Shown piece by piece: positions 9,131-56,577 of a stretch of DNA of 64,000 nucleotides (position 1 is the first letter of the stretch; every line of letters starts with the position of its first letter). The notes under the pieces are model-generated. The model was not told the origin of the DNA and made no database searches. It saw only the letters and a program-made list of their open reading frames with translations. The stretch spans positions 62,001 to 126,000 of the forward strand of contig NZ_JAAGKO020000020.1 of assembly GCF_027947535.2 (NCBI RefSeq), given 5' to 3'. The position numbers were made by a program, and so were the translations under genes. The DNA is from Streptantibioticus silvisoli (GTDB taxonomy: Bacteria > Actinomycetota > Actinomycetes > Streptomycetales > Streptomycetaceae).

Positions 9131-10919
9131 CGGACGGGGTACCTCCTCGCGACAGCAGCGGGGCGCTCGGTTTCGGGTTGTCGGCGTGCGTGGGCTCGTT
9201 GGGTCCGTGCGGCAGCGGATGGTCGGTGACGTAGGCGGTGCCGGGCCGGCACCAGGTCCGTGCCTGGCAGCCGTGGCAGTGGCGCCCTGTCCTCGGTTCG
9301 TACGTGGTGTCGTCCAGGAGCGGCTGGGCGAGGCCGGCTATGACGCCCCGGGCTTCGTCGACGATCTCGGCACGGCCGGGATCGACGCGTTCGAGCCTGC
9401 TCTCTCCGTGGCCCTCGCGCAGATGCTCCAGTTCGACCCAGGAACGGCGCGGATCGTCGCCCAGCACCCTCGCGTGGAACAGCAGGACCCCGAGGGCCAG
9501 TTGCGGGTACGTGCGCAGCAGCGGCTCCCGCTCCCACAGCGGACGGGCGGAGGTCTTGGTCTCGCGCCAGATCCACCGGCCGCGATGGGTGTACACCAGG
9601 TCGGGTACGGCGAGGACGACGACATCAAGTTCCGGCACGTAGGCCGTCACACGGTGCTGTACGAGTACACGCTCGTCGGCGCCGAGTCCGTTGAGCGGGC
9701 ACAGCAGCCGGTGCTCGGCCAGCATTGCGGAGGCCTCACGCGCGGACGCGTCGTCCAGACCGATCCCGAAGCCTGGCGTGGCCGGGTCGGGGGCCGCGCG
9801 GTCCCGGCAGCCGCGCACCGGCTGTTCGCCGTGTCGTGCGTCCAGCCAGGAGTCGACGGCCCTGCCTCGCCGCGCTCCTTCGTTCTCGGTGGACAGATCG
9901 TTGAGATGCAGGCGCCGCACCAGGTGGTACTGGGCGGGGCATTCGGCGTACAGGCGCAGATCCCATGCGGAGACGGAGCGGCGCTTGCGTGCGACGGACG
10001 GGGGTCGCCCTCCCCACAGGCTCGGGGCGCGTTTCAGGTCCGTACAGCCGGCGATGGCCTTGCAGTCGACGCAGCTCTCGCCGGGATGAGTGCCGGTCGC
10101 GGTCGCGACGGCGACGAACGCCGGTACGGCGTCGCCCTCGAACCGCTTCCTTGCCTCGCCGGGCCCTTCGCCGAACCGTGGTGCCACGCCGAGCAGCGGT
10201 TCCACCGAACCATCGGCGCATCCCACGTCGAAGACGCGCACTAGGGCAGGGGGAAGGGTGGTGTTGGTCGCCTCGGCAGGGGGTTCGTCCCGCGCCCTGC
10301 GTCGGGGCGTGGGCGCCCCGTACGCCATCACCTGTGCCATGGCCCCGATTTCGGCCTCGGGACGACTGCTCTTGGCCCGGCCCAGCGAGGGCAGCCACAG
10401 GTCGCGCACGGTCCCGTCGGCGGAGGCGTACATGCGGCCCCACACGGTGTGCTCGTACTGCCGGGCGCCGCGCGGGCCGGGTGCGTCCGTGCGGCGTGTG
10501 CGCCAAGTCCACGGGTGCTTGACCGCCGCGGTCGGCGGCAGGCCCGACTTCTCTGCGGCGGACTGCTCCCGGGCACGGGCCGCGACGTACCGCTCCAGAG
10601 CGTGGGCGGTCCACGCGAGGTGTACGGGGTGGACCGGCGCGCCCCGGCCACGGAACGGCCCGCGAGTGCCGCGCAGTTCCGTACGCACTCGCTCGACGGA
10701 CCAGCCATGGTGCTCCACGAGGTCGAGCGCCGTGAAGAGGGGGCCGAACCCGAACTCCTCGTACGGCGTGGACAGGAACGGCACGGCCGGTCCGGCCACG
10801 AGCTGGGGCCGCATCGCGATACGGCGGTGCGTGGGGCAGGCCGCGGCGTCGGGCCGGGCCATCCGGGGACTCGCTCTGATCAGCCAGTCGTCTCCGGCGA
10901 CGCCCGGTGGATTCTGCAT
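9123..10919 (-). CDS. RecB/Cas4-like PD-(D/E)XK nuclease with Fe-S cysteines, first gene of pPIWI-RE operon
   Basis: About 598 residues from the ATG at 10919, which follows a GGGGG tract; the frame is open to a GTG at 11021, so an N terminus 34 residues longer is possible. The C-terminal half looks like the AddB/Cas4/RecB nuclease group: SAWDLRLYAECPAQYHLVRR at the domain start, VVVLAVPDLVYTH with the metal-binding Asp, WIWRETKTSARP with the E-x-K pair, and a closing CHGCQARTWC. The Cys of AECP plus the three closing cysteines could bind a 4Fe-4S cluster, as in Cas4 and AddB. An extra pair (CVDCKAIAGC) lies in the middle. The gene heads the operon and overlaps the REase gene by 8 nt. It is an addition to the core three-gene pPIWI-RE set; a role in end processing or guide generation is inference. 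Confidence 0.78.
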   Translation of the reverse strand: MQNPPGVAGDDWLIRASPRMARPDAAACPTHRRIAMRPQLVAGPAVPFLSTPYEEFGFGPLFTALDLVEHHGWSVERVRTELRGTRGPFRGRGAPVHPVHLAWTAHALERYVAARAREQSAAEKSGLPPTAAVKHPWTWRTRRTDAPGPRGARQYEHTVWGRMYASADGTVRDLWLPSLGRAKSSRPEAEIGAMAQVMAYGAPTPRRRARDEPPAEATNTTLPPALVRVFDVGCADGSVEPLLGVAPRFGEGPGEARKRFEGDAVPAFVAVATATGTHPGESCVDCKAIAGCTDLKRAPSLWGGRPPSVARKRRSVSAWDLRLYAECPAQYHLVRRLHLNDLSTENEGARRGRAVDSWLDARHGEQPVRGCRDRAAPDPATPGFGIGLDDASAREASAMLAEHRLLCPLNGLGADERVLVQHRVTAYVPELDVVVLAVPDLVYTHRGRWIWRETKTSARPLWEREPLLRTYPQLALGVLLFHARVLGDDPRRSWVELEHLREGHGESRLERVDPGRAEIVDEARGVIAGLAQPLLDDTTYEPRTGRHCHGCQARTWCRPGTAYVTDHPLPHGPNEPTHADNPKPSAPLLSRGGTPSDD

Positions 10920-11024
10920 GGTGACCCCCGTGGAGGGCGGCATGGGCAGGAGGACGTCCAGGACCGTCGAGCTCCGCACGTCGCCGTACGAAGTCCCAGA
11001 CACGACTTCAGCATGGCACACATC

Positions 11025-11039
11025 TGTAAACTGAGTCCA
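11025..11039 (-). promoter_or_regulatory. Copy 1 of the island motif T[TG]GACTN[AT]GTT[CT]ACA
   Basis: On the minus strand the site reads TGGACTCAGTTTACA. It lies between the divergent kinase gene and the pPIWI-RE operon, 106 nt from the operon's likely ATG at 10919. Near-identical copies occur at 14847-14861 and 28306-28320, also in divergent intergenic regions of the island. The first hexamer resembles a -35 box, but no good -10 lies 17-18 nt downstream, so an operator or activator site is as likely as a promoter. Confidence 0.5.
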
Positions 11040-11115
11040 TGCGCATCTCGCAAGAGGGTTTCTTCACGCTACTCTGTTGCGCCGAAGGGTGCGGGAGGCG
11101 AAGGAGCGGCGCGGC

Positions 11116-12624
11116 GTGGACGCGGATTCGTACGCGGAGATGTACAGACCCGGAACGGGTGATCTGATCGACGAGCGCTACGAGTTGACGGAGTCGCTCG
11201 GCAAGGGCGGGATGGCCCACGTCTGGCGTGCCCGCGAGGCCTCCGCGGGTCGCGAGGTCGCAGTGAAGTTCCTGCGTCACGACTCCGAGGCCCTATACGC
11301 TCTGGACCCGCACGAGAGGGCGGCCGAACTCGCGGTCAGACACGCCCGGTTCCGGCGCGAGGCCACGCTTCTGGGCACGCTCGACCACCCGGGCATCACG
11401 GCGCTGTACGGCAGCGGATCGCACCGGGGTGTGCCGTACATCGCCATGCGCCTGGTGACCGGGGTGAGTCTGCGGACCTTCCTCGACGAGCACACACCGC
11501 TGCCGCCGGCGACGGCGATCGCCGTCGCCGTACAGGTGGCAGGAGCATTGGCCTGCGCGCACACGTTGCCTGTCGTGCACCGGGATCTCAAGCCCCCCAA
11601 CATCATGATCGACGACGAAGGGGCGGCCGTCCTCATTGACTTCGGCATCGCCAAGCCGCTGCGGGCCGACGCCACCCGGTACACGGCGCACGGTTCCACG
11701 CTGGGCACCCGCGGCTACCTGGCACCCGAACAGCTCCTGGAGCGCGAGCCCACAGCGCGCACGGACGTGTACTGCTTCGGCTGCGTCTTCTACGAACTGC
11801 TCACCGGACGCCCGCCGTTCCCGCTCGGCGCGGACGCCGGTCTGACCGAGAGGCATCTGTACGAGGAGCCATTGCCGCCGAGTTTGTACGCCGCGGGCAT
11901 CCCCGAGGCGATCGACGACCTGGTGATCCGCATGCTCGCCAAGCAGCCTGGGCGGCGACCGCCCGTCGACGAGGTCCTGGAGGTCCTCGCCCCGCTCGGC
12001 CCGCAACCTGGCGACCCCGAACCCCGGCCGCGCACCCACCCCGATCCGACGGCCCCGCTCCGCCGGCCCGCGGACCGGACTCCGTGCGCGTTCCGCGCTC
12101 CCTGCGAGCCGCCTGCCACGGCTTCGGCGGCAGGCGAGGAGGAGTGGCTGGACGCCCGCGCGGTGGAACTACTCTGCACGCGGGCCGAGTCGGAGATCGC
12201 CGCCGGCGAATCAGGGGAGGCGACCGGCCGTCTGCGCGAACTGGCGGAGCGTGCGCGCGGGGAATGGGGAGAGCGCCGCCCGCTGGTGCGCCGTGTGTGG
12301 CGGGGAGCGGCGGACGGGCTCCGGCTGGCCGGAGACTTCGGTTCCGCGGCCCGTCTCTACCAGGGCATCGACGATGGTCTCCTGCACGGGGATGGTCCGG
12401 CCGAGCGGGCGGAGCGCGCGGTGGTCCGGCTGCGACTGGCCGAATGCCGACTCGCCTTCGGTGAGCTGGAGACCGCTGTCGCCACGGTAGACGCCGCGGG
12501 ACACACGGCCGCGGGTCTGCCGCGAGAGCTGGCCATACAGGTCGAGTCCGTACGGCACGAGGTCGATGTCCAACTCTCGGCTCGGTTCGCGGACACGAAC
12601 GACCGGGGCGGGCCGGGGACCTGA
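11116..12624 (+). CDS. Cytosolic Ser/Thr protein kinase with TPR-like tail, divergent from the pPIWI-RE operon
   Basis: 502 residues from the GTG at 11116, chosen because AAGGAG lies 9 nt upstream; an in-frame TTG at 11077 has no such site. All Hanks-kinase motifs are present: glycine loop LGKGGMAHVW, VAVK lysine, HRDLKPPNIM catalytic loop, DFGIAK, and APEQLL. Residues from about 340 to the end are amphipathic helices with repeated Ala/Leu/Arg patterns, like tetratricopeptide repeats, and probably bind a partner. There is no transmembrane segment and no PASTA domain, so this is not a standard PknB. It is divergent from the pPIWI-RE operon across a short regulatory region, and the second defence operon at 28 kb has the same arrangement. 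A link to control of the defence genes is inference from position. Confidence 0.85.
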   Translation: MDADSYAEMYRPGTGDLIDERYELTESLGKGGMAHVWRAREASAGREVAVKFLRHDSEALYALDPHERAAELAVRHARFRREATLLGTLDHPGITALYGSGSHRGVPYIAMRLVTGVSLRTFLDEHTPLPPATAIAVAVQVAGALACAHTLPVVHRDLKPPNIMIDDEGAAVLIDFGIAKPLRADATRYTAHGSTLGTRGYLAPEQLLEREPTARTDVYCFGCVFYELLTGRPPFPLGADAGLTERHLYEEPLPPSLYAAGIPEAIDDLVIRMLAKQPGRRPPVDEVLEVLAPLGPQPGDPEPRPRTHPDPTAPLRRPADRTPCAFRAPCEPPATASAAGEEEWLDARAVELLCTRAESEIAAGESGEATGRLRELAERARGEWGERRPLVRRVWRGAADGLRLAGDFGSAARLYQGIDDGLLHGDGPAERAERAVVRLRLAECRLAFGELETAVATVDAAGHTAAGLPRELAIQVESVRHEVDVQLSARFADTNDRGGPGT

Positions 12625-12715
12625 CCGCACGGCAAGGAGACGTGATGCGCGTCACCATGCCACACCGCGCCGCGCCCCAGTGGCCCCCGCCGCCGCGCGC
12701 GGCCACCCGAGCGCA

Positions 12716-14731
12716 CTACATCCCGCCCGCGAGCCGCCCAGCCGCCAGTTCGTCACCGAGGTCGTGGACGAGTTCCGCACCGAGCTCGGCGGTGCGCCGC
12801 GCCATCTGTTCGAAGGCCGCGAGCTCGCGGAACGCCTCGCCGTAGCGCCGCTGTTCACCGAGCGGCACCTGGCGGACCTGGAGGCGCCGGACATCGATAC
12901 GGGAGGAGCTCGTCGCGTGCGTCCCGGCCTGCCGGACGTTGGCCGGAGCGCGCAGCGAACCGGCGAGGAACCAGGCGTCGAGCTGCTCGGACTGCACCCG
13001 CACGGCGTGCAGCTGGGGGCCCAGGGCGGTCGGCGGCCCCTCATGAACCCAGGCGGAGAACGCCCGCGCCACCCCCACCACCACGATGTCCCCGGGTTCG
13101 GCGATCACGGCCTCGCGCGCCGCAGGGTCGTCGGCGGCGAGGCGCGCCCGAGGTTCGCCGCCCGAAAGAAGGTCGGGAACCGTCAGGAACGGAATATCCT
13201 CGGCCGACGGCGCCCCGGTGCGGACCGCCGCCTCCGGTGGTTGCTGGCCACCGCGCAGGGAGAGCGCCCCCGCCCGCGCCAGTTCGGCGACGGTGGTCGC
13301 CGTCAGCTGTGCGGCGGAGGTCAGTTCGAGCGCCGCGAGCAGCCGGGCCAACTTGGTCATCCTGGCGGCGAGATCTTTGAAGTCCCGCCAGGATGCCGCT
13401 AGTCGCGGCGCCGTGTTCGCCGGCGACGGGGTGATGTGGCGTCCCGGAGTGAGATCGACCTCGTCGTCGAGGAGCTCGATGACGGGTACGCGTCGCACGA
13501 AGGGAGAGACCTCGGCCCGATCGGTCTGCCCGACGGCCTCGCGCAGGAAGTCACCGATCGCCGCCCATTGGGGTGCCCACTCGCGGCCCGGGTCCCGGGG
13601 AAAGCGGGACACGCCGTCGGCCACCAGCAGGTGGCCTCCCGCGTGTGGCTCTTCACCTGGTACGGGCGCCCGCAGTACCCACAGGTGCAGGGATACGCTG
13701 TGGGGCGCGGCGCATCCCGGCGGCAGCGCGACGACGGCCTTCAGCTGGCCGGTGCGCAACAGCGATCCGCGGATGCGCCGGCCCGCTTTTCGCGCCGCCA
13801 CGGCGGGAGGCAGCAGCAGCACGGCCGCGCCGCCGGGCCGCAGCCCGGCCAGACAGTGCTGGACCCAGGCGAGTTCGGGTTCGGTACGCGGCGGCAGCCC
13901 GTGGCTCCAACGGGCATCCGTGGCCAACTCCTCATATCCCCAGTCCCGTTCGTTGAACGGCGGATTGCACAGGACGATGTCGGCGGGGACGTCGGCGAAC
14001 GGGTCGTCGCGCAGAGAGTCCCCATCGCGTACGTCGATGCGCGCGGGCTCTTTCGCCTGGGTGTCCTCGGCGAGGCTCAGGCGGGCTTCGGCGAGTGCCG
14101 CGAGTACGGGATCACGGTCACCGCCCAGCAAACTCAGCGCCCCACCACCTGTCCCGCTGGCCACCTCGGTCGCGGCCATCAGGAGGTGGCCGGTACCGCA
14201 GGCGGGGTCCATCACCGTGATGCCGCCGCCGACGGCCGCGACGCGGGTGGCGAGCTCCGCCATGAGCACGGCCAGCGGCTCGGGTGTCGTGGGGATCTGG
14301 CGTACATGGACGTCGAGCCAGCGGCGCAGCAAGAAGGCGAAGATCTCCGGGCCTCCTTCACGCCGCCCGAGGTCCACCGCCCGCTCGATCAGCGCTGCCG
14401 CCTCATCCGTGAACGTGGACTCCCCTTCCGCGCCCCGATGTGCGAGCCTCCTGCCCACCTCCGCGACCGCAGTCCCCGTCTCGTCGCGTCCACCGAGCGA
14501 CTCGAAGCGGGGCCAGAGCCATTCTCGCTCGGCGGACTTCTTGAGCTTCTTGTTGTCGCGCAGCCAGTCCTCGATGTCAGCGAGGGAGAACTGGGGGTTG
14601 ACGTCCGTGCCGGCGATCCGGGCGGGGAACGACGGATGACGCCGCCGCCAGTTGCTGACGGCGGCCCGCCCGACGCCCGCGAGACGAGCGATTTCCGCCA
14701 GAGACACGGGTACGGCACGGGGCGTGGACAT
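12716..14731 (-). CDS. N6-adenine DNA methyltransferase fused to a specificity (HsdS-like) domain, with N-terminal HTH
   Basis: 671 residues from the ATG at 14731, which has GGGAG 6 nt upstream. Residues 8-58 form a helix-turn-helix (AEIARLAGVGRAAVSNWRRR). The catalytic core follows, with motif I VMDPACGTGHLL near residue 172 and motif IV DIVLCNPPFNERDW near 255, the N-P-P-F signature of adenine methylases. From about residue 440 onward the protein resembles a target-recognition half of a type I HsdS subunit (DIPFLTVPDLLSGG, EPGDIVVVG, ending in a helical region with RRYGEAFRELAAFEQMA). It is therefore an M-S fusion without a nuclease domain and with no hsdR next to it. It may mark self DNA for the neighbouring systems or act as an orphan methylase. 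It converges on the kinase gene and is divergent from the RAMA gene. Confidence 0.82.
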   Translation of the reverse strand: MSTPRAVPVSLAEIARLAGVGRAAVSNWRRRHPSFPARIAGTDVNPQFSLADIEDWLRDNKKLKKSAEREWLWPRFESLGGRDETGTAVAEVGRRLAHRGAEGESTFTDEAAALIERAVDLGRREGGPEIFAFLLRRWLDVHVRQIPTTPEPLAVLMAELATRVAAVGGGITVMDPACGTGHLLMAATEVASGTGGGALSLLGGDRDPVLAALAEARLSLAEDTQAKEPARIDVRDGDSLRDDPFADVPADIVLCNPPFNERDWGYEELATDARWSHGLPPRTEPELAWVQHCLAGLRPGGAAVLLLPPAVAARKAGRRIRGSLLRTGQLKAVVALPPGCAAPHSVSLHLWVLRAPVPGEEPHAGGHLLVADGVSRFPRDPGREWAPQWAAIGDFLREAVGQTDRAEVSPFVRRVPVIELLDDEVDLTPGRHITPSPANTAPRLAASWRDFKDLAARMTKLARLLAALELTSAAQLTATTVAELARAGALSLRGGQQPPEAAVRTGAPSAEDIPFLTVPDLLSGGEPRARLAADDPAAREAVIAEPGDIVVVGVARAFSAWVHEGPPTALGPQLHAVRVQSEQLDAWFLAGSLRAPANVRQAGTHATSSSRIDVRRLQVRQVPLGEQRRYGEAFRELAAFEQMARRTAELGAELVHDLGDELAAGRLAGGM

Positions 14732-14846
14732 CTGAACTCCCTGGACTTTTCTCAACCAAAGCGGATCTTTCCCCCATCTATGGGCGCGCGATCAAGCCAC
14801 TTCCCCCTCCCGCACCTCGGCAGACTACTACGACCGGGCGCGAGTA

Positions 14847-14861
14847 TTGACTTTGTTCACA
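14847..14861 (+). promoter_or_regulatory. Copy 2 of the island motif
   Basis: The plus strand reads TTGACTTTGTTCACA. It differs from copy 3 (minus strand, 28320 to 28306) at only two central bases and shares 11 of 15 bases with copy 1. It lies in the 373-nt divergent gap between the methylase-specificity gene and the RAMA gene, 116 nt from the methylase start and 243 nt from the RAMA start. Apart from this site and the promoter described next, I see nothing else in the gap. Confidence 0.5.
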
Positions 14862-15026
14862 GGCCAACCACGGACATCGCCTCTCATCGCCACCCCGTCC
14901 CGGGTCACCCTGGCCACGGAACGCGGCGAAACTCCTGCCCCCGGGTCACACAGACACACCTACCGGCACTCCGATGCCGGGACCGACCAGCAGGCGAACG
15001 GTGGCGCTCCGCTGGCACGAGATGGA

Positions 15027-15055
15027 TTGACAGGAGGGGACACCCGCATTATTTT
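15027..15055 (+). promoter_or_regulatory. Vegetative-type promoter of the RAMA gene
   Basis: TTGACA at 15027-15032 and TATTTT at 15050-15055 are separated by exactly 17 nt, close to the consensus for the principal sigma factor of Streptomyces. Transcription would begin near 15062, about 43 nt upstream of the RAMA start codon. It is one of the clearest -35/-10 pairs I found in the window. Confidence 0.65.
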
Positions 15056-15086
15056 TTTCTTGCACCTGCACAAGAGAGAAAAAATA
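15050..15086 (+). promoter_or_regulatory. A/T-rich imperfect inverted repeat over the RAMA promoter
   Basis: The left arm starts exactly at the -10 box (TATTTTTTTCTTGCA) and the right arm ends in AAGAGAGAAAAAATA. The arms match apart from a 3-nt bulge and one further base around a TGCA-CC-TGCA centre. Such A/T richness is striking in DNA of this GC content. Because it covers the -10 box and the expected start point, it is well placed to be an operator, perhaps for the RHH domain of the RAMA protein itself. Confidence 0.5.
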
Positions 15087-15104
15087 GTCCGAAGAAGGAG
15101 CGCG

Positions 15105-15488
15105 GTGCCCGAGCACACCATCATCGTCGACGCGGAGGTCTTCGCCCGCCTGCAGCGCGAGGCCAAGCCCCTCATTGACACACCTAACAGCGTGCTGCGG
15201 CGCCTGCTGGCCCTGGATGAGGCGACGGTCCAGCCCGGTGCCCTCGCCAAGTTGCTGGCCGCAGGACTGCTGCGGCCAGGGCAGCAGTTGACCTGGCGCC
15301 GCCGCAACCTCGGCCAGGAGCACCGCGCGCACGTCACCGCCGAGGGAAGCCTTCGCCTGGAGGGCGGCCGGATCTGCCCATCGCCGTCCGGCGCGTGCGA
15401 GGCGGTGACCGGAGCCAAGGCCAACGGCTGGGACGCCTGGCACACGGACGACGGCACGTCCTTGAGTGCTCTTCGCGGCAGGGTCTGA
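15105..15488 (+). CDS. RHH-RAMA protein, predicted reader of modified DNA
   Basis: 127 residues from a GTG preceded by GAAGAAGGAG. Residues 4-37 (TIIVDAEVFARLQREA, then SVLRRLLAL) resemble a ribbon-helix-helix, and in particular the N-terminal oligomerisation domain of SeqA. Residues 47-124 match the RAMA (restriction-associated modified-DNA reader) fold: LLAAGLLRPGQQLTWRR, an HVTAEGSLRLEGG strand pair, CPSPSGACEAVTG and NGWDAWHTDDGTSLSALR. RAMA domains are predicted to recognise methylated or otherwise modified bases. With one methylase gene divergent upstream and another converging downstream, it may sense or protect modified sites, or repress its own promoter according to modification state. 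Family knowledge supports reading of modified DNA; the target base is unknown. Confidence 0.75.
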   Translation: MPEHTIIVDAEVFARLQREAKPLIDTPNSVLRRLLALDEATVQPGALAKLLAAGLLRPGQQLTWRRRNLGQEHRAHVTAEGSLRLEGGRICPSPSGACEAVTGAKANGWDAWHTDDGTSLSALRGRV

Positions 15489-15670
15489 AGCACTTCGACG
15501 GGGGATCGACCCGTGGACTTCACTCAGCGCATGTCCGCGCAGCTCACCCTGCGCCGGCAGCGCACCGACATGCCGGCAATTCGCGTTCGCGAGTACGACG
15601 TGGGCCGGATTCGTCACCGACTCCCGGCGCAGCCGGTCCAACTGGCCGGCTGCGCCTGCGGCTTCCTGGT

Positions 15671-18600
15671 TCAGCTCTCGTGGCGGGGGCCCTGGCCCGG
15701 CGGCGGGTCCAGTACCGTCTGGTACGCGCGGCCGGCCTCGCGGGCTTTCGCCATGCGGTCGTAGATGTCGAGGATGAGGTCCTTGGTGCGATAGGTGCCG
15801 CACAAGGTCTCCTCCCGCTTCTTTACCGTCGGAAACGTCTCCATCACGTAGTCCACGTCGGCACGGCTGATCCCGTACATATGGAACAACGCTGCATCCA
15901 ACTCCGCGCGCAGCAGGGCGCGGCGGTCGTCGCTCCAGCGGAACGGCATTCCGGAGTAGCCAAGATCATTTGCAAAGTCCGTCAGGTCCCTGCTGGTCCA
16001 CGCCAATTCGGCAACTCGATCGATGAACCACTTGGCCCCACCGGGCACTTCGGCGAAGTCCGACAGCTCAGGAACGGGCAACTGGTAAAGATAGCCGTAT
16101 GTCAGGTGTGTGCCTGCGATCTTCTGGCGGATCACATAGTCGAAGACGTACGACGACATGCACGCCTGCAGGAGAGCTGCCGCCTTTGCGTTCGCCGGGA
16201 ACATGAGCGGGCTCGTGTGACCGACTCCGTACGGAGGTAGAACGGTGGCAATCGTTGTCCGCGTATCAGTGGACCGGGCGATGTCCCGCCACCCCACCAA
16301 CCACCCGTTCCACCACTCCCGCTCAGCGAGCCGAGAGGCCACCCCCGGCCACATGATCCGGTTGCCCTTCTTGTCCCGATTCCCGGAATACACATCGAAC
16401 TCCGGCACCCAGTACCGGGGCATCGGCGCGAACTCCGGATCATCCTGCTGCTCCGCCGTAACCCTCGGCAGCGTCCCCACATTCGCCTGCGCCTGCGTCT
16501 GTCCCTCAAACGTACCCAGCCGGTGGTCGAAGTGGTGGAGCATCTTCGCCTCGTACAGCGGCAGATAGCGCCGCCCGTCGGACGGGTGCGTGAAGATGTT
16601 GCCCTTGAGCTTCCAACCCTCGCCCTCCAGTTCCTTCCTTCCTCGGAACAAGTGGGAGTCTGAAGCCATGTTGAACAAGCCCTGTCGGAACGTGAGACCC
16701 CATGGATTCGAGCCGCCCCTTCCCTCCGCGTCAGGCTCCTTGAGGAGCACGGGGATACGCCGGTAGATCCCGAGGGTGATCTCCGCGTCGCGGCGGGTGC
16801 GGAACACCGGCAGCGTGCCGGTGTTGGGGTTGACCAGGAGGATCTCCTCGGGCGGCATCGCGAAGCGCCGCTCGTCGAGGTCCTCCATGTACCGGGTGCC
16901 GAACGCGAAGGACGCCGAATCCACCCGCTCACCCCGGCCAGCGACGGTCAGCAGCGAGAACCGGACTGAGTGGTGCACGTCCCGGCTGAGGATGAACGCC
17001 TCGTTCTCGAAGTCCAGGAACGAGGCGAGCCGTGAGGTGCGCACCAGGTCGGAGAAGAACGGCGCGGTCGTCGCGTCGGTGGCGATTCCGGTCGGCAGGA
17101 CGAGGCCGAAGCGTCCGGTGGAGGCGATCCCATGAGATGCCGCCTCAGCGAACAGCGGGTATGTGTTCAGCTTCCCTCGCGCAGCCAAGGGATTCCGGCC
17201 AGACCACCGAGCCAGATGCGAGTATCCGTCGGAAAGCCGCCTATCGGCGACGTACTGCCGGTGCAGCAGGCGGTCCGCCTCCTCTGCGCTGTCGACAAGC
17301 TGGTCAATCAGTCTCTGCCGCGCAGCCTGGTTCGACGCCTTCGCAATCTCAGGCGCGCTGGTGGCGAAGTACTCCTCTGTCTTGAACTCAAGGGTCTCCC
17401 ACGGCGGGTTACCCAGCACACAGCTGAATCCGCCCTTCCACCCGGTACGTTCATCCACCCCCGGCGCCTCAGGATCGGCCGGCACCCGGAACACCTCCGG
17501 GAACTCCAGGTGCCAGTGGAAGAAGTGGTACTCCTCGCGCAGCCGCGCCACCTTCTCCACCGTGCCCGCCGACAGGCTCGCTCCCCCGTCGGCGGAGTGC
17601 AGCGCGAGCAGGGAGTCCGTAGTGAGCGCGGGCGGTAGGGCTTCGTCCGCTCTCCTGGTCCCGTCGGTCCGCTCGGTCTTCTCCCAGACGAACGCCGCGC
17701 ACCACGCGTCGGCCAGTCGCAGGGCTCGCAGGTAGTCGTTGGAGGTGGTGAGCTCGTGGTACGCGCGGGCTTGGTTCTGGACGTCCTCCAGTTCCTCCGA
17801 CGGTGAAGTCGTGATGCCCAAAGTCGCTCTGGTGATCGCCGCGTTGGAGATCTCCAGCGCGTGCTGCTCCGAGAACAGAGCGTCCTGGCTGGCGCCGCGC
17901 CGCAGCGCCGCCAGCCACCGCTCCCGCTCGCTCGCGTTGCGGGCCTTCAGGTTTCTGACGGCCTTGGACTCGTCGCCCTCAAGGACCTTGAACGCCTCGT
18001 CGGGCAGACCGCCCGCGAGGAGCTTCGGTGTCGTGCCGAGCAGCCCGTTGCCGTGCTTGATGTGCGCGTCGAGGAACGTGAGCGGGCGGCCCGGCTTCAT
18101 GGCCTCGATCCACAGGGAGACCTTGGCGAGTTCCACGGCCATCGGGTTGAGGTCGACGCCGTACACGCAGCGGGAGATGACCTCGCGCAGGGCGCTGCGT
18201 ACGTCCTCGGCGCCCGGCTCCGGATCGTCGGTCTCGATCTCCGCGAGCCGGCGGGCGATGCGGCGGGCCGCCGCGACCAGGAAATGGCCGCTGCCGCAGG
18301 CCGGGTCGCACACGGTCAGGGCCAGCAGCGCCGCCTTCCGCTCCTCCCTCGTCGTGCCCGAGCGTACAGCCCGCTCGATGACGGGGTCGAGAGCCGAGTC
18401 CAGGAGGCAGTCGATGAGCGGCGAGGGCGTGTAGTACGAGCCGGAGGTCTTGCGATCGTTGCCGTCCAGCTTCTTCAGGACGTACGAGCCGTCGTCGTCC
18501 TGGCGGGGTTCGAGCTCGAGGAGCGACTCGTAGACCGAGCCGAGTTCGTCCGCGCCCAGATGCCGGTAATCGACCTTGCGGGGCCGGCTGAGCTTGGCGT

Positions 18601-19821
18601 CGAAGATGACGGCGAGGGCGCGCACCGCCTCGTACAGGGACTCATTGGTGAGGGCGAGACCGTCCAGCATCCCGTCCGCAGAGGTGGGTTCGAAGAGGCC
18701 GCCGAGTGCGGGCAGACCCAGTTCGGGACGCCCGCCGGGCTCACCGAGGCCCTTGATGACGAGGGTGAGGGCCTCCCACTGGTCGCTGTGCGGGCTGCCC
18801 GCACGGCGGGCGAGGCGGCGAAGGCGGTCCGTGGAGAAGTACTTCTCGTAACGGTCGCGGGCGATGTCGCCGGCGCCCGGGTGGAGGAGGAGTCCGCGGT
18901 CCTCGGTGACGAAGAGGAAGAGCAGCCGGTAGACGAGCCGCAGCAGGGCGGGGTGGAGGTCGCGAACGCTGAGGGCGCGAGTGTGCAGGGCGTCGCGCAG
19001 CTCCACGTTGTCGGGGTGAGTGATCAGCCCGGAGCCGATCACCGTGAGAGCCGTCTCGACGCCCTTGCGGAGCTCCTTGAGGGCGCGGGTGCCGGAGTCG
19101 ATGGCCTCGGTGCGCCACTTCTCCAGCGGGCAGGACGCGGCGGGGTCACCCTCGAAGCGGGTGCGGTGCAGCAGGCGCCACAGGAGGACGAAGTCGTCGG
19201 AGCGCTTGCCCTCGAAGATCGCTTGGAGATCGAACTCGATGAACGCGGAGCCGATCAGCGATGCGGACTCGCGCAGCAGCCGCAGCTGGCGGCCGTTGGA
19301 CAGAACACCCCACAGGGCCTTGTCGCCGGAGCGGTTGAGGTACTCCTGGACCATGGACTGCGGTGCCTGCGTCGCCACGTGGGGGGTGCGGGTGTCCAGT
19401 GGGACGTTCCAGCCGGTGAGGTGCACGGGCACGTGCGCCCACATGTGGCTGACTGGGAAGTCCTTCGTGTGGTCGTGGGCGGGCAGGCCAGGCGCCGGCA
19501 CAACGGGCAACGCGCCGAAGCCGAGCTGCTCGAACAGGGGCAGCAGCCAGCGTTCGGTGGTGAGCCCCACTGCGTGCACACCCGTGTCGTCGTCCGCTCC
19601 GTCGCGGGCGAGCGCGTCCTGGTAGGCAGCCCAGACGCCGCGCAGATAACCCCAGGAGCGCTCGGCGGCGTCCCGTACGAACTCGCCCTTGGCGAACAGC
19701 CGGTAGTCGGCGGGCTTCGCGCAGGACTGCTCCTTGCCCTCCTTGATGCGTACGAGGAGGTCGTACGGCAGCAGTCCGCCGGCGGTGGCGACGGTGTCGG
19801 TGACCAGAGTCCTCGCGGTGC

Positions 19822-19825
<4 letters not shown>
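15671..19825 (-). CDS. Eco57I/PglX-type adenine-specific DNA methyltransferase (DrmMI-like)
   Basis: 1384 residues from the ATG at 19825, which overlaps the stop of the SNF2 helicase gene by 4 nt (ATGA). The methylase core has GSYYTPSPLIDCLLDSALD, motif I LTVCDPACGSGHFL near residue 505, and motif IV FSCVLGNPPWETLEF near residue 800. The long N-terminal region and the C-terminal region (HMYGISRADVDYVMETFP) are typical of the large single-chain methylases of BREX (PglX) and class 1 DISARM (DrmMI). Coupling to a DrmD-like helicase favours a DISARM-type role: marking host DNA so that the partner helicases and nuclease attack only unmarked invading DNA. No classical restriction domain is visible in this chain. 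It ends 182 nt from the end of the convergent RAMA gene. Confidence 0.82.
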
Positions 19826-22806
<2,981 letters not shown>

Positions 22807-22925
22807 ACGAGCCTTCCGGGTGGGTGCGGGCGGGCAGACGTGACATACGTATGGAGTGTGGAGGGCAGCCGACGGGTCGTTGGACCCGTTGGCCGACGCT
22901 TCTTGGAGGGGTGTCCGACCACAGG

Positions 22926-25900
22926 TCAGCGACGAGGTTCGCCGAACACCTGAGGGTACTCACCGACCTTCTTGGACCAGTCGTCGTCGTAGCGGACGCG
23001 GACCACTTCCCAGCCGAAGTCCTTCAGCCGTTCCTCCGCCTCCTCGTCGCGCAGCACGATGTCGTCGTGGTCGTGGTGCGGGCCGTCGATGAAGACCGCG
23101 ATCGGGCCGAATCCGGTGTCGTACACGAAGTCCGGCTTGGACAGGGCCTCGCGCACCGTGATCTGCTGGTGATCCGGGAGCCGGTGCCCGTGCGACCTCA
23201 GGTATTCGACGAAGCGCTCCTCCAGGCTGGAGTCGGCTCCCTGCCGCAGCGCGTCGGCGTGTTCGTCGCGTGAACGGCCCGGGGTGCTGGCGCCAACGGT
23301 GCCGTCCGCGAAGGCTCCGAGGAGTTCGCGTACCAGCTGCCGGTTGATGACGCGGTGGTGGCGCTGGTTGCCGAAGGAGAGCAGACAGTCGTAGCAGCCC
23401 CTCTCGCACGGGTCGCCGTTGCTCTTCTCGTCTCCCCGGTCCCGGCCCAGCTGGTCGAAGTGGGCGATTTCCAAGGCCTTGCGCGCGGCGCGGGCCAGAG
23501 CTCCGGGCTCGGCCTGCAGACGCCGGAGCACGCCCGCGCCGCCCTCCGCGCTCTCGATGAACAGCAACCGCTCACGCGGCCCGTCGTACGGCGGCAGCTC
23601 TTCGGTGTCGAGTTCGGCGTCCTCCAGCTGGAACTCCGCCTCGATGCCCCGCTCCAGGGCGTACTGGAGGGTGACGGCGGTGTCCCGGTCGACCGGCTCG
23701 GCCAGCTGGAGGACGAGGATGTTCCGGGTGTCCTGCACGTACGGGATCACCGGCATCTTGCGGTTCGCCTTCTCGGCGTCCGCGAGCCCTTCCTGCTCCT
23801 GGGGGGTCTCCCGACCGCCCTTCTTGGCCGCGCCGCCCGCGAGCCACTCGCCCGTCACCGGGTCCATCCAGAAGCCGATCTCGCCCTTGGCGACGGAGCG
23901 GCGGTAGCCGAGGTTGGTGAGCCGGACGGTGGCGCTGTCGCCGTACGCCAGCTCGGCGAGGGCGCGGCCGGAGGAGGTCTGCGCCATGGCGCGCAGTGAT
24001 CCGTCGCGGCCGTCCTCGTGTTTCTTGAAGCGGTAGGAGATCTCCACCTTGTAGCCGGTGCGCTGGCGCTCCTCCTCGTCGGAGGAGATCCGGTCGCGGC
24101 GGTGGGTGAAGACGGTGTGCAGGTGCAGCAGACCGGTCCGCGCGTCACCGAGGCCGCTGCCGCAGCCCATGCAAACGTCCTCGTGCTGCTCCTCCGGGGA
24201 CAGATAGCCGCAGGCCCCGCAGACCTTCGCGCTCTCGGTGGTCAGCTCACCCGCGGTGTCCGGCGGCAGCTGCACCCGGTCCACCTTGTAGCGGCTGCCC
24301 TCGTGGTAGATGAGCGCGCCGGGCCCGAACTCGCGGATCGCGATGAACCTGGAGCGCTGCAGGTAGTCGCCGTCGTAGCCGCCGCGGCTGGTGCGGCCGG
24401 TGCCCGGGATGTAGGCGGCGAGCGGCAGCCTGGGGAAGGAGTAGCCCGGCAGGAAGCCCTCGGAGGCGAAGTAGCGGTACGGGAAGAAATCCGACATCAC
24501 GGTCCGCTCGCCGCCCTGCTCGTTGCGCAGCAGCGCGAGCTGGCTCTCAGCCTGGGCGCGGCGGCGCTTGGCCTGGTCCTTGGAGCGGCCCGTGGCGGTG
24601 CGGTTGAGAATGTTGCGGTGCTGGATCTCGCGCTCTTCGAGGGCCTGCCTGAAGAGGTTCTTCCAGCGCCCGCACGCCTTGCGGAAGCTGCCCGGCGCGC
24701 CCTCGACGGTCTGCTCCAGCCACCGCTCGTGCCACCAGGACGTGGCACGCAGCAGGTCGCCACAACCGTCCAGGACGGTACGGGCCCGCGCCAAAGCGCG
24801 GCGCCGGGCGGCCGGCTCGTCGATGGCCCCGGCCACCGATGACGCAAGTTCCAGCGACGGGTTGTCGCCGTCGGACTCGATCAGCCTGGCCATGCTGGCG
24901 CCGAGATCGAGCCGGGTCTCGGCGAGCCAGATCGCGTGCACATGGGAGGCGAGCAGATCCTCGTTCGCCAGGTCGAGCCGGGGCGGGGCGACAACACCGG
25001 ACACCATCTGCGCGCGCCGGGTGAAGTAGTACTGGTCGTGGCTGTTACCGGTCGCGCAGTACGTGGTGACGAGCGCGGGCTGTCCACTGCGGCCGGCACG
25101 GCCCGAACGCTGTGCGTAGTTGGCGGGTGTCGGCGGCACGTTGCGCAGGTTGACCGCGTTGAGGCTCTTGATGTCGACGCCGAGTTCCATCGTCGGCGAG
25201 CAGTACAGGAGTGGGAGCCGGGTGCCCTCGCCGAACAGATCCTCGCGCTCCTGGCGGACGTCGGGGTGGACCTGGGCCGTGTGCTCGGCGGCGTGCAGAC
25301 CGGCGAAGGTGGCGGCGATGTCCTGGTAGAGCCGCTTGAAGAAGGCGTTGACGCGGGGCCCGCGCTCGTCGCGGTAGGTGCGGCGCAGGCGGTCCACGGC
25401 GCCGTGGTCGTCGTCGCGGGCGTGCCAGCGGATGACCGTGTGGTTGATTCGGTAGCCGGGCTCCTCACCCCGCCCCTGGGAGACCTCGGTCAGGACTCCG
25501 CCGTCCGCCAGGACCCAGAGCAGGCCGCGGATGATGTCCTGGGCCTCGTCGAGGGAGAGTCCCTGCCCCCAGTCGGGAAAGGTGGTGTCCTTTCGGACAT
25601 GGCGGCCGAACGCGGTGCGTCCCGTGAGGTTCAGCTCGCTGCGGTCGCGCCCGGTGCGGCCGGGGCGTCCGGCCCGTGCCACGGCGAACTTGGCCGGAGG
25701 GGGCGCCGCCTCCGTGTCGGCGATCCCCCACGCGTCGTTGAGCCGGGCCGACTCCTTGCGCAGTTCGGCGAACTTGGCCTCGGTGAAGTAGGGCGTGTCC
25801 ACGGCGCGCTGGCGGCGCAGCTCATCCATGAGGACCGTGGACAGCCGGTGGCGCACCTCTGGGGTGGCCGTACGCAGCGGGCCCGCAGTGTCCTGCCACC

Positions 25901-28199
25901 GGTCCTCCTCGCCGGCGATCGCCTCCAGACCCGCGTACTCAAGGCCGAGCAGCCCGGTCTGCTCCAGGTTGGGCATGGTGACGCGCCAGCCGCGTTCCAG
26001 GTCCAGGAAGAGGCGGTACTCGGCGACCGCGGCCAGTGACTCGAGCGTGCTCTCGGCGAGTTCCTCGATCTCAGTGGGCTTGGCCGCATACTCGTGCGGG
26101 GAGAGCCCCATCGCCACCACTACCTCTTCGCCGAGCCGCTTCCAGCGCAACCCCTTGTCGCCGGCCGCGGCCATCGCCCGGTAGAGGGCGCCGCGCAGCT
26201 GCGTGACCATGACGAAGTCGTTGAAGTGGCCCGACTGCAGGCTCGCGTCCTGTCGGTTGTCGACGAAGGTGAGCAACTTCCGGGCGTCCTGCTTGAGTTC
26301 TCCCTCGGGAATGCTCTTGAGGTGACGCACGATCGAGGCGCTGATGACGGAGGTGGCGGTCGAGCGGCCCTCCTGGTCGAGGGTCATCAGCTTGGCGAAG
26401 TCGCGCTCCTTGACCTGCTCATACCCGACACCGCACTCCAGGCAGAAGAGGAACGGTGCAGGCAGGTACGCCGCGTAGATGCCACCGTTCGCTCTTCCCC
26501 CACCGGCGCCGTCCGGGCGCACCCACACCGGCTGCGGCGCCCGCTTCCTGCGGCTCGCGGTGAGCACCGGGGTGCCCTTGCGCTCGTCGAAGGTGAGCCA
26601 GCTGTCGGGGAAACGCCGCTGCTCGATGGCGTCGCCGACCTGCTCCGGCCACGGGTTGGCGGCCGAGATGTACAGATATCCCTGCTCGTCGTCCTCGTCC
26701 TCGCGCGTACGGAAGGCGACGCTGCCGTCGCCCTCCTGGTCGCGGGCCACCATCACATACTCCTGTCCGCATTCGCGGCAGAAGGACAGCGGCAGCAACA
26801 GCTTCTCGGGGGCGTTCGGGACGCGCTGTTGGTATGTGCGGGTGATGTGGCGGTCGGCCTCTCCCTCCAGGGAGACGTAGACAGATCCGCCCTTGGACAG
26901 GAACTGGTGCAGCCTGAAGGCGAACAGCGGGCGGTTGCCCTCCTCGCTGCGGGCGGCCGCCCCCGCCTGGAGGGTGGCACGGATGGCCTCCGCGCAGGCC
27001 TCGTACCAGCGCTCCTCCGGCTCGCCCTCCTCAATGCCGAACGCCTCGGAGCGCAGGCGCAGAGCGGCGGCCTCCACGGTGACCGGTTTGGCGCGGACCA
27101 GGAGCGTGCTGCCGTCCTCGTCCTTGGTCTCGACCAGGCCGAAGGTGGTCTCGATCCAGTGAGCCAGCGGATCGGCGGCCAGCCGCCCGTACTCAGCCGG
27201 AGGGTTGTTCTCCCGTACCCGCGCGGCGAGCTCGGACGGCGTGGGCACTGCGTTCCGGGTCGCCCGCACCAAGGTCTCGCCGACCACCCGCTCCGGGGAG
27301 ATCTCCGTGTCGAAGAGGGTCGAGGCGACGCGGGCGACCTCACGGCGGCGCGCGGCGGGCGTGCCCCCGGTGGCCATCGTCGCGGACGTACCCACGCATT
27401 GCAGGCCGGGCGACTGGCAGGCCTCGCGTACGCGCCGCACCAGCATGGCGACATCGGCGCCCTGCCGCCCCCGGTAGGTGTGCAGCTCGTCGAGGACGAG
27501 AAAGCGCAGCCCCTTGGCCGCCCCGATGAGCTTCTCTCGCTCCTTGGGCCGGGTGAGCATCAGCTCCAGCATCACGTAGTTGGTCAGCAGGATGTCGGGC
27601 TTGGACTCGCGGATGGCCTCCTTCTCGTCCTCCTTCTCCTGACCGGTGTAACGGGCATAGGTGACCGGCTCGTTCCCCTCGCCGTATCCGGCGGTGAGGA
27701 ACTTCGCCAGCTCCCGCTCCTGGCTGTTGGCGAGGGCGTTCATGGGGTAGACGATGATCGCCTTGATGCCGGGCGCGGCGCCGGCCTCCTTCTCGCGCAG
27801 CACCCGGTCGACGATCGGCACGATGTAGCCGAGGCTCTTGCCGGAGCCGGTGCCGGTGGTCAGGACGTACGAGTCCCTGGAGTCGGCCGCCTTGATCGCC
27901 TCCAGCTGGTGCTGGTGGAAGTGGATCGGGCGGACGGTGCCGCCCCGCTCGTCCTTGCCCGTACGGAAGATGTCCGCACACGCCGGGTGAAGCAGTCCTT
28001 CCGGCCGCGCGAGATCCTCAACCGAACCGCCGGGCGCGAAGCTCGGGTTGAGGGAAAGGTAGGGGTTGGGCCACTGGTCTCCGTCGGCGAGCGACTTCGA
28101 CACCTTGGCGTCGATGCGCCGGTCGTCGATCACCACCGACCCGGACGTGTACTCCTTGTAGTCCCGGATGAGCCGCTGGTGCACCTTGAAGACGTCCAC
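22926..28199 (-). CDS. Giant DEXH helicase with DUF1998/MZB zinc domain and C-terminal nuclease-like domain
   Basis: 1757 residues from the GTG at 28199, which has GGGGA just upstream (the frame stays open to 28304). The N-terminal helicase has LTTGTGSGKSLGYIVP (Walker A, near 117) and VLDELHTYRG (DELH Walker B, near 235), followed by a second RecA domain (YCSPTMELGVDI, YAQRSGRAGRSG). Zinc-type Cys pairs follow (CRECGQEY, CLECGVGY, CGACGYLSPEE with CMGCG), then the MZB/DUF1998 signature CERGCYDCLLSFGNQRHH near 1600. The last 95 residues (KPDFVYDTGFGPIAVFIDGP, then RLKDFGWEVVRVR) resemble the Vsr/DUF559 endonuclease fold. DISARM normally splits helicase (DrmA) and DUF1998 (DrmB) into two genes; Druantia DruE is also a giant DUF1998 helicase. 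This protein could be a DrmA-DrmB-nuclease fusion or a DruE relative, and its neighbours favour the first. Confidence 0.8.
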   Translation of the reverse strand: MDVFKVHQRLIRDYKEYTSGSVVIDDRRIDAKVSKSLADGDQWPNPYLSLNPSFAPGGSVEDLARPEGLLHPACADIFRTGKDERGGTVRPIHFHQHQLEAIKAADSRDSYVLTTGTGSGKSLGYIVPIVDRVLREKEAGAAPGIKAIIVYPMNALANSQERELAKFLTAGYGEGNEPVTYARYTGQEKEDEKEAIRESKPDILLTNYVMLELMLTRPKEREKLIGAAKGLRFLVLDELHTYRGRQGADVAMLVRRVREACQSPGLQCVGTSATMATGGTPAARRREVARVASTLFDTEISPERVVGETLVRATRNAVPTPSELAARVRENNPPAEYGRLAADPLAHWIETTFGLVETKDEDGSTLLVRAKPVTVEAAALRLRSEAFGIEEGEPEERWYEACAEAIRATLQAGAAARSEEGNRPLFAFRLHQFLSKGGSVYVSLEGEADRHITRTYQQRVPNAPEKLLLPLSFCRECGQEYVMVARDQEGDGSVAFRTREDEDDEQGYLYISAANPWPEQVGDAIEQRRFPDSWLTFDERKGTPVLTASRRKRAPQPVWVRPDGAGGGRANGGIYAAYLPAPFLFCLECGVGYEQVKERDFAKLMTLDQEGRSTATSVISASIVRHLKSIPEGELKQDARKLLTFVDNRQDASLQSGHFNDFVMVTQLRGALYRAMAAAGDKGLRWKRLGEEVVVAMGLSPHEYAAKPTEIEELAESTLESLAAVAEYRLFLDLERGWRVTMPNLEQTGLLGLEYAGLEAIAGEEDRWQDTAGPLRTATPEVRHRLSTVLMDELRRQRAVDTPYFTEAKFAELRKESARLNDAWGIADTEAAPPPAKFAVARAGRPGRTGRDRSELNLTGRTAFGRHVRKDTTFPDWGQGLSLDEAQDIIRGLLWVLADGGVLTEVSQGRGEEPGYRINHTVIRWHARDDDHGAVDRLRRTYRDERGPRVNAFFKRLYQDIAATFAGLHAAEHTAQVHPDVRQEREDLFGEGTRLPLLYCSPTMELGVDIKSLNAVNLRNVPPTPANYAQRSGRAGRSGQPALVTTYCATGNSHDQYYFTRRAQMVSGVVAPPRLDLANEDLLASHVHAIWLAETRLDLGASMARLIESDGDNPSLELASSVAGAIDEPAARRRALARARTVLDGCGDLLRATSWWHERWLEQTVEGAPGSFRKACGRWKNLFRQALEEREIQHRNILNRTATGRSKDQAKRRRAQAESQLALLRNEQGGERTVMSDFFPYRYFASEGFLPGYSFPRLPLAAYIPGTGRTSRGGYDGDYLQRSRFIAIREFGPGALIYHEGSRYKVDRVQLPPDTAGELTTESAKVCGACGYLSPEEQHEDVCMGCGSGLGDARTGLLHLHTVFTHRRDRISSDEEERQRTGYKVEISYRFKKHEDGRDGSLRAMAQTSSGRALAELAYGDSATVRLTNLGYRRSVAKGEIGFWMDPVTGEWLAGGAAKKGGRETPQEQEGLADAEKANRKMPVIPYVQDTRNILVLQLAEPVDRDTAVTLQYALERGIEAEFQLEDAELDTEELPPYDGPRERLLFIESAEGGAGVLRRLQAEPGALARAARKALEIAHFDQLGRDRGDEKSNGDPCERGCYDCLLSFGNQRHHRVINRQLVRELLGAFADGTVGASTPGRSRDEHADALRQGADSSLEERFVEYLRSHGHRLPDHQQITVREALSKPDFVYDTGFGPIAVFIDGPHHDHDDIVLRDEEAEERLKDFGWEVVRVRYDDDWSKKVGEYPQVFGEPRR

Positions 28200-28305
28200 G
28201 TGTTCCCCACTTGTTCCCGACGCGGTCCGGAGCAACGGTAGCCACTCGCCAGCCGCGGTGCGCCACACTCCCCTTGATCGTACGTCGTACATCACAACAT
28301 GCAAT

Positions 28306-28320
28306 TGTGAACTCAGTCAA
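28306..28320 (-). promoter_or_regulatory. Copy 3 of the island motif
   Basis: The minus strand reads TTGACTGAGTTCACA. It lies in the divergent gap between the DISARM-like operon and the second kinase gene, 107 nt from the helicase start codon. That is almost the same distance as copy 1 has from the pPIWI-RE operon start (106 nt). Confidence 0.5.
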
Positions 28321-28443
28321 TCGACAGTCGGCTCATGCGGGCGGTTTCGCCAAGCAACGTGCTCATGCCACACTCTGTCCGAGGTGCCCGCCCGGCGGAC
28401 GCGTCGGGCCACGAAGACGGACGCGGACGGAGTCGCCCCGCAC

Positions 28444-29415
28444 ATGGACATCGGACCTGTGATCGCCAAGCGCTACCGGATCAAGCGGGAGATCGGATCC
28501 GGCGGCATGGGTGTCGTCTGGCTCGCCCACGACGAACACCTCGGCCGCGACGTCGCGCTCAAGACCATGAACATGGCCGCGGGCCTGACACAGGACCAGC
28601 GCACCCGGGATGCCGAACGCTTCCGGCGCGAGGCCCGCGCCGCAGCACGCCTCGACCACACCGGCATCGCCACCGTCTACGACCTCGGCGAGGAACGGGG
28701 CACACGGTTCCTGGTCATGCAGTACGTGACCGGCGTCGACCTTGAAGACCGGATCGCCGAACTGGAACGGCTGAGCATTGAGGAGACAGCTTCGGTCGGG
28801 GTGCAGATCGCCTCCGTCCTCGGCTCCGTGCACGCCCGCGACGTCGTCCACCGCGACCTCAAGGGCCGTAACGTCATCATCCGCACCGACGGCGTGGTCA
28901 AGGTCCTCGACTTCGGCGTCGCCGCCTTCCTCGAACCCGGCACCCGCAGGCTCACCACCACGGGCGAGCGGCCGGGCAGCCTGGAGTGCATGGCGCCCGA
29001 ACAGATCCTGGGCAAACCGGTCGACCACCGTACCGACCTGTACGCGCTCGGCTGCCTGCTCCACAAGATGCTCACCGGCGAACCCGTCTTCGAGCACCGC
29101 TCGGACCTCATGCTTCCCGGCCTGATCCTCGACCACCCGCCGATCCCCCTGCGCGACCTGCGCCCCGATGCCCCCAAGGATCTGGAAGCCCTCGTACTCG
29201 GGCTCCTCGCCAAGGCACCGGAAGATCGCCCGTCCCACGCCGGCGAGGTCTGGCTACGGCTCGCTTCTTGGCTCCCCGAACGCGGCGACCCAGCGGCCGC
29301 GCTCACTCCTTGGGCCGAGGTCGATCCACTGCGCCCCTTCCGACACCCCATGGGGCCGGAAGCCCGCCCAGTGCGCTCCTGGGCAAGGACTCCGCAGCCA
29401 GGCCGGCCGGGCTGA
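28444..29415 (+). CDS. Small cytosolic Ser/Thr protein kinase, divergent from the DISARM-like operon
   Basis: 323 residues from the ATG at 28444, which has GGAG about 12 nt upstream. The chain is nearly all kinase domain: glycine loop IGSGGMGVVW, VALK lysine, HRDLKGRNVI catalytic loop, DFGVAA, and a degenerate activation region ending MAPEQIL. No membrane anchor or sensor domain follows; the last 50 residues are short and rich in Pro and Arg. The catalytic residues look intact. It is divergent from the DISARM-like operon just as the kinase at 11.1 kb is divergent from the pPIWI-RE operon, and the two gaps share a 15-bp motif. An imperfect inverted repeat (TTCTCACGCTAAGTGTGAGGA, with arms CTCAC and GTGAG) about 40 nt after its stop could help termination. 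Confidence 0.83.
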   Translation: MDIGPVIAKRYRIKREIGSGGMGVVWLAHDEHLGRDVALKTMNMAAGLTQDQRTRDAERFRREARAAARLDHTGIATVYDLGEERGTRFLVMQYVTGVDLEDRIAELERLSIEETASVGVQIASVLGSVHARDVVHRDLKGRNVIIRTDGVVKVLDFGVAAFLEPGTRRLTTTGERPGSLECMAPEQILGKPVDHRTDLYALGCLLHKMLTGEPVFEHRSDLMLPGLILDHPPIPLRDLRPDAPKDLEALVLGLLAKAPEDRPSHAGEVWLRLASWLPERGDPAAALTPWAEVDPLRPFRHPMGPEARPVRSWARTPQPGRPG

Positions 29416-56541: not shown

Positions 56542-56577
56542 CGTTCACGTCGTTCACGTCGTTCACGTCGTTCACGT
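56542..56577. repeat. Four tandem copies of a 9-bp unit
   Basis: The unit CGTTCACGT is repeated without spacers. It is not within a supported gene. The lack of spacers rules out CRISPR; it looks like slippage expansion. Confidence 0.7.

Follow-up and report, generated by a model that had tools for sequence, protein, structure and literature searches.

How bacteria coordinate their several defence systems is a largely open question, and it is raised in a concrete form by a stretch of 64,000 nucleotides from Streptantibioticus silvisoli (contig NZ_JAAGKO020000020.1, positions 62,001 to 126,000; called the window below). The window holds a defence island, and a 15-bp motif with the consensus TTGACTNNGTTCACA recurs in three of its intergenic regions. 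Is the motif an operator, and if so, which protein reads it? We consider it probable (ca 0.8) that the 15-mer serves as operator for a methyltransferase with a helix-turn-helix (HTH) domain, which would regulate its own gene as well as the neighbouring defence operons. The evidence from sequence consists of the sites, their conservation and orientation, their co-occurrence with the methyltransferase, and a covariation between HTH and operator; physical binding, dimerisation, repression and release are what we infer from it. The sites and the candidate regulator are:

11025–11039, minus strand: site 1, TGGACTCAGTTTACA, between the pPIWI-RE operon (minus) and the kinase gene STK1 (plus).
14847–14861, plus strand: site 2, TTGACTTTGTTCACA, an exact match, in the promoter of the HTH-N6-methyltransferase and oriented opposite to that gene.
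28306–28320, minus strand: site 3, TTGACTGAGTTCACA, an exact match, between the YprA-like gene (minus) and the kinase gene STK2 (plus).
12716–14731, minus strand: candidate regulator P0002, with a winged HTH, an N6 DNA methyltransferase and a specificity-domain-like C-terminus.

The three 15-mers had been reported in an earlier note on this DNA (the original prediction), and all of them are found where it placed them, on the strands it gave. It had also called for a scan of the genome for few further copies. A pattern search with mismatches, with the reversed pattern as control, finds only two exact matches to TTGACTNNGTTCACA in the 8.70 Mb assembly (130 contigs), both inside the island. There are none at one mismatch and 25 at two, and the reversed pattern gives 10 matches at up to two mismatches. 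From order-0 base composition ca 0.025 exact matches are expected, a post hoc figure, as the consensus was drawn from the same sites. The option that the 15-mer is the substrate site of the methyltransferase was ruled out, two exact copies in the genome being too few. Inside the window, a search at three mismatches gave no significant excess, with 10 matches compared to 5.5 +/- 2.6 in shuffled sequences. Site 1 is two mismatches off the consensus and indistinguishable from chance within its own genome; it is credible because the orthologous positions in relatives are conserved, where usually TGGACTCAGTTCACA or TTGACT..GTTCACA is found.

The relatives were sampled as 200 genomes of the family, one genome per species. 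All of the evidence is comparative, and the locus counts given here (loci are numbered with L) are not independent. The exact pattern occurs in 70 of the 200 genomes and the reversed control in 2; the site is found in Streptomycetaceae, and also in Nocardia and Umezawaea. Matches of the form TTGACTCGGTTCACA, usually one per genome, are located upstream of a homologue of the window methyltransferase that is chromosomal and conserved, and in most Streptomyces genomes the sole exact copy is the one in the methyltransferase's own promoter. Matches with other dinucleotides lie upstream of island-type methyltransferases. Finally, clusters of two to three sites within about 35 kb occupy divergent promoters of defence operons, namely those between the pPIWI-RE operon and a kinase, between the YprA-like (ARMADA) gene and a kinase, between DISARM DrmA and a UvrD-GajB-like helicase, and between a 293-aa gene followed by a GmrSD type IV enzyme and a helicase with an MTES_1575 nuclease domain.

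Among the loci collected, the site is present upstream of 53 of 68 pPIWI-RE operons and of every YprA-like (7/7) and DrmA (8/8) gene, and its orientation is constant within each class (53/53 of those detected, 7/7 and 8/8, respectively). The conservation upstream of orthologous operons that the original prediction had proposed to look for is found across species, orthologous promoters keeping the site at 32–90% protein identity. Its observation that two sites lie 106 and 107 nt from the start codons is correct for the window but coincidental, since in relatives this distance is about 42–178 nt at the pPIWI-RE operon and 97–106 nt at the YprA-like one, which rules out a meaning for the equality. 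No homologues of the methyltransferase in phages were found in IMG/VR, and the 54 exact viral matches of one 15-mer among 2.9 million contigs are an unremarkable number.

Which protein, then, reads the site? P0002 has its HTH at about residues 10–60, motif I as DPACGTG and motif IV as NPPF. In Pfam it matches N6_Mtase and, weakly, HTH_17, with no match to a WYL domain. The AlphaFold2 model (mean predicted local distance difference test score, pLDDT, 82.5) contains HTH helices at residues 12–19 and 23–32, a wing, the methyltransferase fold and a C-terminal domain that resembles a type I specificity half, and the structures that Foldseek ranks highest are those of type I M and related methyltransferases. 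No other part of the protein is conserved as strongly as the HTH. At 56 of the 57 methyltransferase loci in named genomes (the exception being L199) the operator is found upstream at no more than one mismatch, always antiparallel to the gene, as is also the case at most of another 70 loci. Over 100 non-redundant methyltransferase promoters, the 15 site columns average 1.64 bits versus 0.17 in the flanks, the GTTCACA half being conserved as strongly as TTGACT. In the promoters of L068 and L252 the usual site is replaced by a near-palindrome, TTGACAGAGTCAA, possibly a shortened operator.

The catalytic motifs are less uniform. Motif IV is intact (canonical N/D/S-PP-Y/F/W) in the window protein and in the 70 compared proteins with arginine at residue 23 (R23), and it reads HPPF or HPPY in the chromosomal Streptomyces group (46 of those compared). 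Other lineages have NPPS, NPPA, YPPS, TPPS, DLPA, NLPF, SPPH or GPPH, with motif I mostly kept; the loci noted for an altered motif IV are L022–L030, L064, L068, L110, L111, L237, L264, L265, L280 and L281. Most of the altered lineages keep both operator and HTH, L264 and L265 being exceptions without the site. Because HTH and operator persist where the catalytic motifs degenerate, the conserved function of the family may be regulation, combined with the sensing of DNA or of S-adenosylmethionine (SAM).

Operator and methyltransferase also occur together. For the pPIWI-RE operons with enough upstream sequence, the operator is present at 46 of the 49 that adjoin an HTH-methyltransferase versus 0 of the 11 that do not (Fisher p = 1e-9, a descriptive value, as the loci are related). 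Most of the methyltransferase-free operons belong to a more distant group; L263, in genome G186, is close to the methyltransferase-bearing ones, with the kinase retained and a restriction endonuclease (REase) of 55% identity to that of the window. This operon has no operator even at three mismatches, and the whole G186 genome has no homologue of the window methyltransferase at E <= 1e-20. The original prediction had named as evidence against itself that close relatives might retain the operons but not the motif; such loss does occur, where the HTH-methyltransferase is missing.

More specific evidence comes from scanning the methyltransferase promoters with operator position 9 left free. Proteins with G22-R23, the main HTH class, have G9 in 121 of 121 detectable sites, whereas those with proline at residue 23 (P23) have C, A or T at this base in 11 of 11, the site of L277 being weak. 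In the methyltransferase tree (a quick tree, with support only from the Shimodaira–Hasegawa-like approximate likelihood-ratio test, SH-aLRT), P23 appears in three separate places: the clade of L241, L280, L281, L285 and L277; the clade of L300 and L323–326, which is nested inside the chromosomal TTGACTCGG clade; and L267. A paralogous family of shorter methyltransferases (L328–L340, about 560 aa) with a T22-R23 HTH is preceded by a variant of the site, TTGACnnnGTACACA, whose upstream position hardly varies. Residue 23, which is R23 in P0002, stands first in the predicted recognition helix of the AlphaFold2 model, and that an HTH residue and an operator base change together would be best explained by a direct contact between them. 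The co-occurrence of site and gene, together with this covariation, makes the window methyltransferase the best candidate for the binding protein.

The proposed mechanism is as follows. The winged HTH of the protein encoded at 12716–14731 would bind TTGACTNNGTTCACA; the imperfect inverted repeat in it, TGA-N6-TCA, is compatible with a dimer, which is the probable form of the bound protein. The methyltransferase would in this way hold down its own gene and the pPIWI-RE and ARMADA-type operons, probably also the divergent kinases, and the arrival of a signal would release all targets together. The idea of the original prediction that several operons answer to one regulator stands insofar as different defence operons share one operator; the methylase, which it had counted among the targets, is probably the regulator itself as well. 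The mode of action is suggested by the position of the site relative to the promoter elements, one of which is:

14825–14831, minus strand: GTAGTAG (CTACTAC on the plus strand), a putative −10-like box of the methyltransferase promoter, proposed from its conservation.

In the methyltransferase promoters of island relatives, the −10-like box is about 5 or 14–15 nt from the site, a difference of ~9 bp between subgroups, i.e. about one helical turn. The pPIWI-RE promoters have a CATGCT −10-like hexamer 16–23 nt from TTGACT. In these promoters the site coincides with the −35 region, and in the methyltransferase promoter it is immediately upstream of the −10-like box. Judged from these promoter sequences, the site covers the −35/spacer region with loose spacing. 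As the spacing is loose, an occluding repressor fits better than a fixed-geometry activator, and if the methyltransferase binds, repression is its likely effect.

We have also considered that the same protein, bound between −35 and −10, activates in the manner of MerR. In favour of this are a weak similarity of the HTH to HTH_17/MerR_1 and the location of the site in the spacer region, not far from the −10-like box. However, MerR-type activation requires a fixed geometry, and the spacings given above vary at both the methyltransferase and the pPIWI-RE promoters; we regard this option as unlikely. Still less likely is that a different, unlinked transcription factor owns the site, with the methyltransferase among its targets just as the defence operons are. 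Such a factor would be in line with a regulon that covers several operons in several genomes, and the case for the methyltransferase is one of sequence comparison. Yet the covariation of residue 23 and base 9 would then have no reason, most Streptomyces genomes have their only exact copy at the methyltransferase, and operons without the methyltransferase are also without the site.

The remaining two explanations do without a dedicated regulator. TTGACT resembles the sigma-70/HrdB −35 hexamer, and CATGCT follows it in the pPIWI-RE promoters, so that the motif could be read as a −35 element with chance similarity downstream, that is, as a common promoter type. This reading was rejected as very improbable: GTTCACA is conserved as much as TTGACT, the site in the methyltransferase promoter points against the direction of transcription, the spacing to the −10-like boxes is not fixed, and two exact copies in 8.7 Mb do not suit a housekeeping promoter. 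A post hoc chance likeness of three AT-rich spots in a GC-rich genome would agree with the non-significant three-mismatch search of the window and with the two mismatches of the copy at 11025–11039, but the conservation in orthologous promoters at 32–90% protein identity and the clustering in other genomes leave it with a negligible probability. PhoP-box-like GTTCAC repeats were rejected as well, since the 15-mer is asymmetric, stands singly and hardly occurs outside the promoters of methyltransferases and defence genes.

It should also be stated what weighs against an operator of the HTH-methyltransferase. The 15-mer at 11025 matches the consensus only weakly, and near one exact copy of TTGACTCGGTTCACA (G091, L154) there is no methyltransferase; copies of TTGACTGGGTTCACA in 8 genomes, which were rejected as background, lie in or overlap a conserved unrelated gene. 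At L264, L265 and L277, methyltransferase-linked pPIWI-RE operons have no clear site. The T22-R23 subfamily loses G9 in L330, L335 and L337 despite the arginine, and the rule for residue 23 and base 9 is not absolute outside the main HTH class. Because the P23 proteins belong to few clades, their effective sample is small. Repression is preferred to activation from the position of the site only.

A possible, if doubtful, extension of the mechanism is that the methyltransferase fold now serves to sense infection, in a protein whose HTH keeps a multi-system regulon off until foreign unmethylated DNA or a loss of SAM releases pPIWI-RE, ARMADA, DISARM and type IV defence. The methyltransferase and specificity domains would then sample DNA and SAM while the HTH sits on the operator, and the lineages that lost motif IV but kept motif I would be members that only sense.

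The genes of the island around the sites are the following:

961–4029, minus strand: pPIWI-RE protein (PF13111, PF13032, PF18157).
4111–7869, minus strand: pPIWI-RE island protein Z, in the position of a DinG-like helicase (PF18155).
7862–9130, minus strand: pPIWI-RE island protein Y/REase (PF18156, PF18154).
9123–10919, minus strand: PDDEXK_1 nuclease (PF12705), first gene of the pPIWI-RE operon, a position conserved in relatives.
11140–12624, plus strand: Ser/Thr kinase STK1 (PF00069), divergent from the pPIWI-RE operon.
15105–15488, plus strand: RAMA-domain protein, starting 243 nt downstream of site 2.
15671–20125, minus strand: PglX/DrmMI-like methyltransferase of the ARMADA-type operon (profile match).
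19822–22806, minus strand: BrxHII/DrmD/DpdE-like SNF2 helicase (profile match).
22926–28199, minus strand: YprA/DruE-like helicase, first gene of the ARMADA-type operon (profile match).
28444–29415, plus strand: Ser/Thr kinase STK2 (PF00069), divergent from the YprA-like gene.

By Pfam, the window has a pPIWI-RE module complete with Y/REase and Z proteins. The operon at site 3, called DISARM-like in the original prediction, does carry the site, but its order of YprA-like, BrxHII-like and PglX-like genes is that of ARMADA type I (an assignment by gene order, with DruE-, DrmD/DpdE- and DrmMI-type profiles); true DISARM, with DrmA, has the site in other species. The YprA/DruE-like gene of G078 (L053:896-6165) matches in two overlapping pieces and may contain a frameshift. 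The divergent Ser/Thr kinases belong to the arrangement, their probable place in the regulon being assigned by position only. A Ser/Thr kinase is likewise encoded one gene after the chromosomal methyltransferase (L153, L155), which suggests that kinase and HTH-methyltransferase are functionally linked. For the RAMA gene, the modified-DNA reader that had been put under the shared regulator, membership is uncertain and unproven: it is assigned by position only, and in L063 the equivalent of site 2 serves the methylase alone. A plasmid search for this gene gave no matches. Just beyond the island, at 31958–37762, the window encodes a very large protein that combines a TIR domain with WD40 repeats, and at 56544–56576 it has overlapping 9-bp TTCACGTCG repeats.

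Compared with known systems, the arrangement is familiar in its parts. M.EcoRII and M.MspI, like M.SsoII and Ecl18kI, are methyltransferases of a regulatory type. M.SsoII and Ecl18kI are type II restriction-modification (R-M) methyltransferases with an N-terminal regulatory region, which bind a regulatory site and control transcription within the R-M system they belong to; the regulatory site of M.SsoII inhibits methylation (PMC6100179, PMC3978073, PMC3695355). The window family shares with them an N-terminal HTH fused to a methyltransferase and a predicted operator in its own promoter. In contrast to the M.SsoII type, which are 5-methylcytosine type II enzymes of one R-M system and regulate the cognate restriction gene, the window protein is N6/type I-like with a specificity-like domain and has no cognate endonuclease identified, and its family has several unrelated defence targets, some members having degenerate catalytic motifs. 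In an E. coli defence island, the small protein RptR is the dedicated repressor of one promoter and recognises the 6-bp palindrome TAGCTA (PMC12255303). One repressor linked to a defence island, with an operator conserved across genomes, would be common to both cases, repression being our proposal here; unlike TAGCTA, which occurs in direct repeats, TTGACTNNGTTCACA is present as a single copy per promoter, and the candidate is a large methyltransferase-like protein over several operons.

CapW is likewise a linked regulator of phage-defence operons, and regulators of the BrxR/CapW type usually serve one cognate system each. BREX defence is controlled by WYL regulators of the BrxR type (PMC9122589). 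The candidate would resemble these as a linked DNA-binding protein over phage-defence operons, and it differs from them in having no WYL match and a different HTH context. ARMADA type I was described as an operon of YprA-like, BrxHII-like and PglX-like genes (PMC12458937); the shared operator and the divergent kinase go beyond that paper, in which neither kinase, pPIWI nor Streptomyces is mentioned. The published pPIWI-RE operon has three genes, for pPIWI-RE, REase and the Z/DinG-like protein, and its authors proposed that HTH domains fused with the REase might serve for autoregulation (PMC3702460). Here, a PDDEXK_1 nuclease comes first, as in many relatives, the kinase is divergent, and a separate protein, the HTH-methyltransferase, would exert the control. 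In the open-access papers that our search covered, we found no description of the operator, of the family as a regulator or of a joint control of these systems; the original prediction likewise knew of no described shared operator for them.

Now that a concrete operator can be named, along with a candidate regulator and its specificity residue, it can be tested directly in Streptomyces whether pPIWI-RE, ARMADA and DISARM are under shared control. Natural controls are available in the operons that have lost both regulator and operator, and in the Arg/Pro variants with their matching operators. The operator scan itself is a bioinformatic handle on new genes that are co-regulated with known defence systems.
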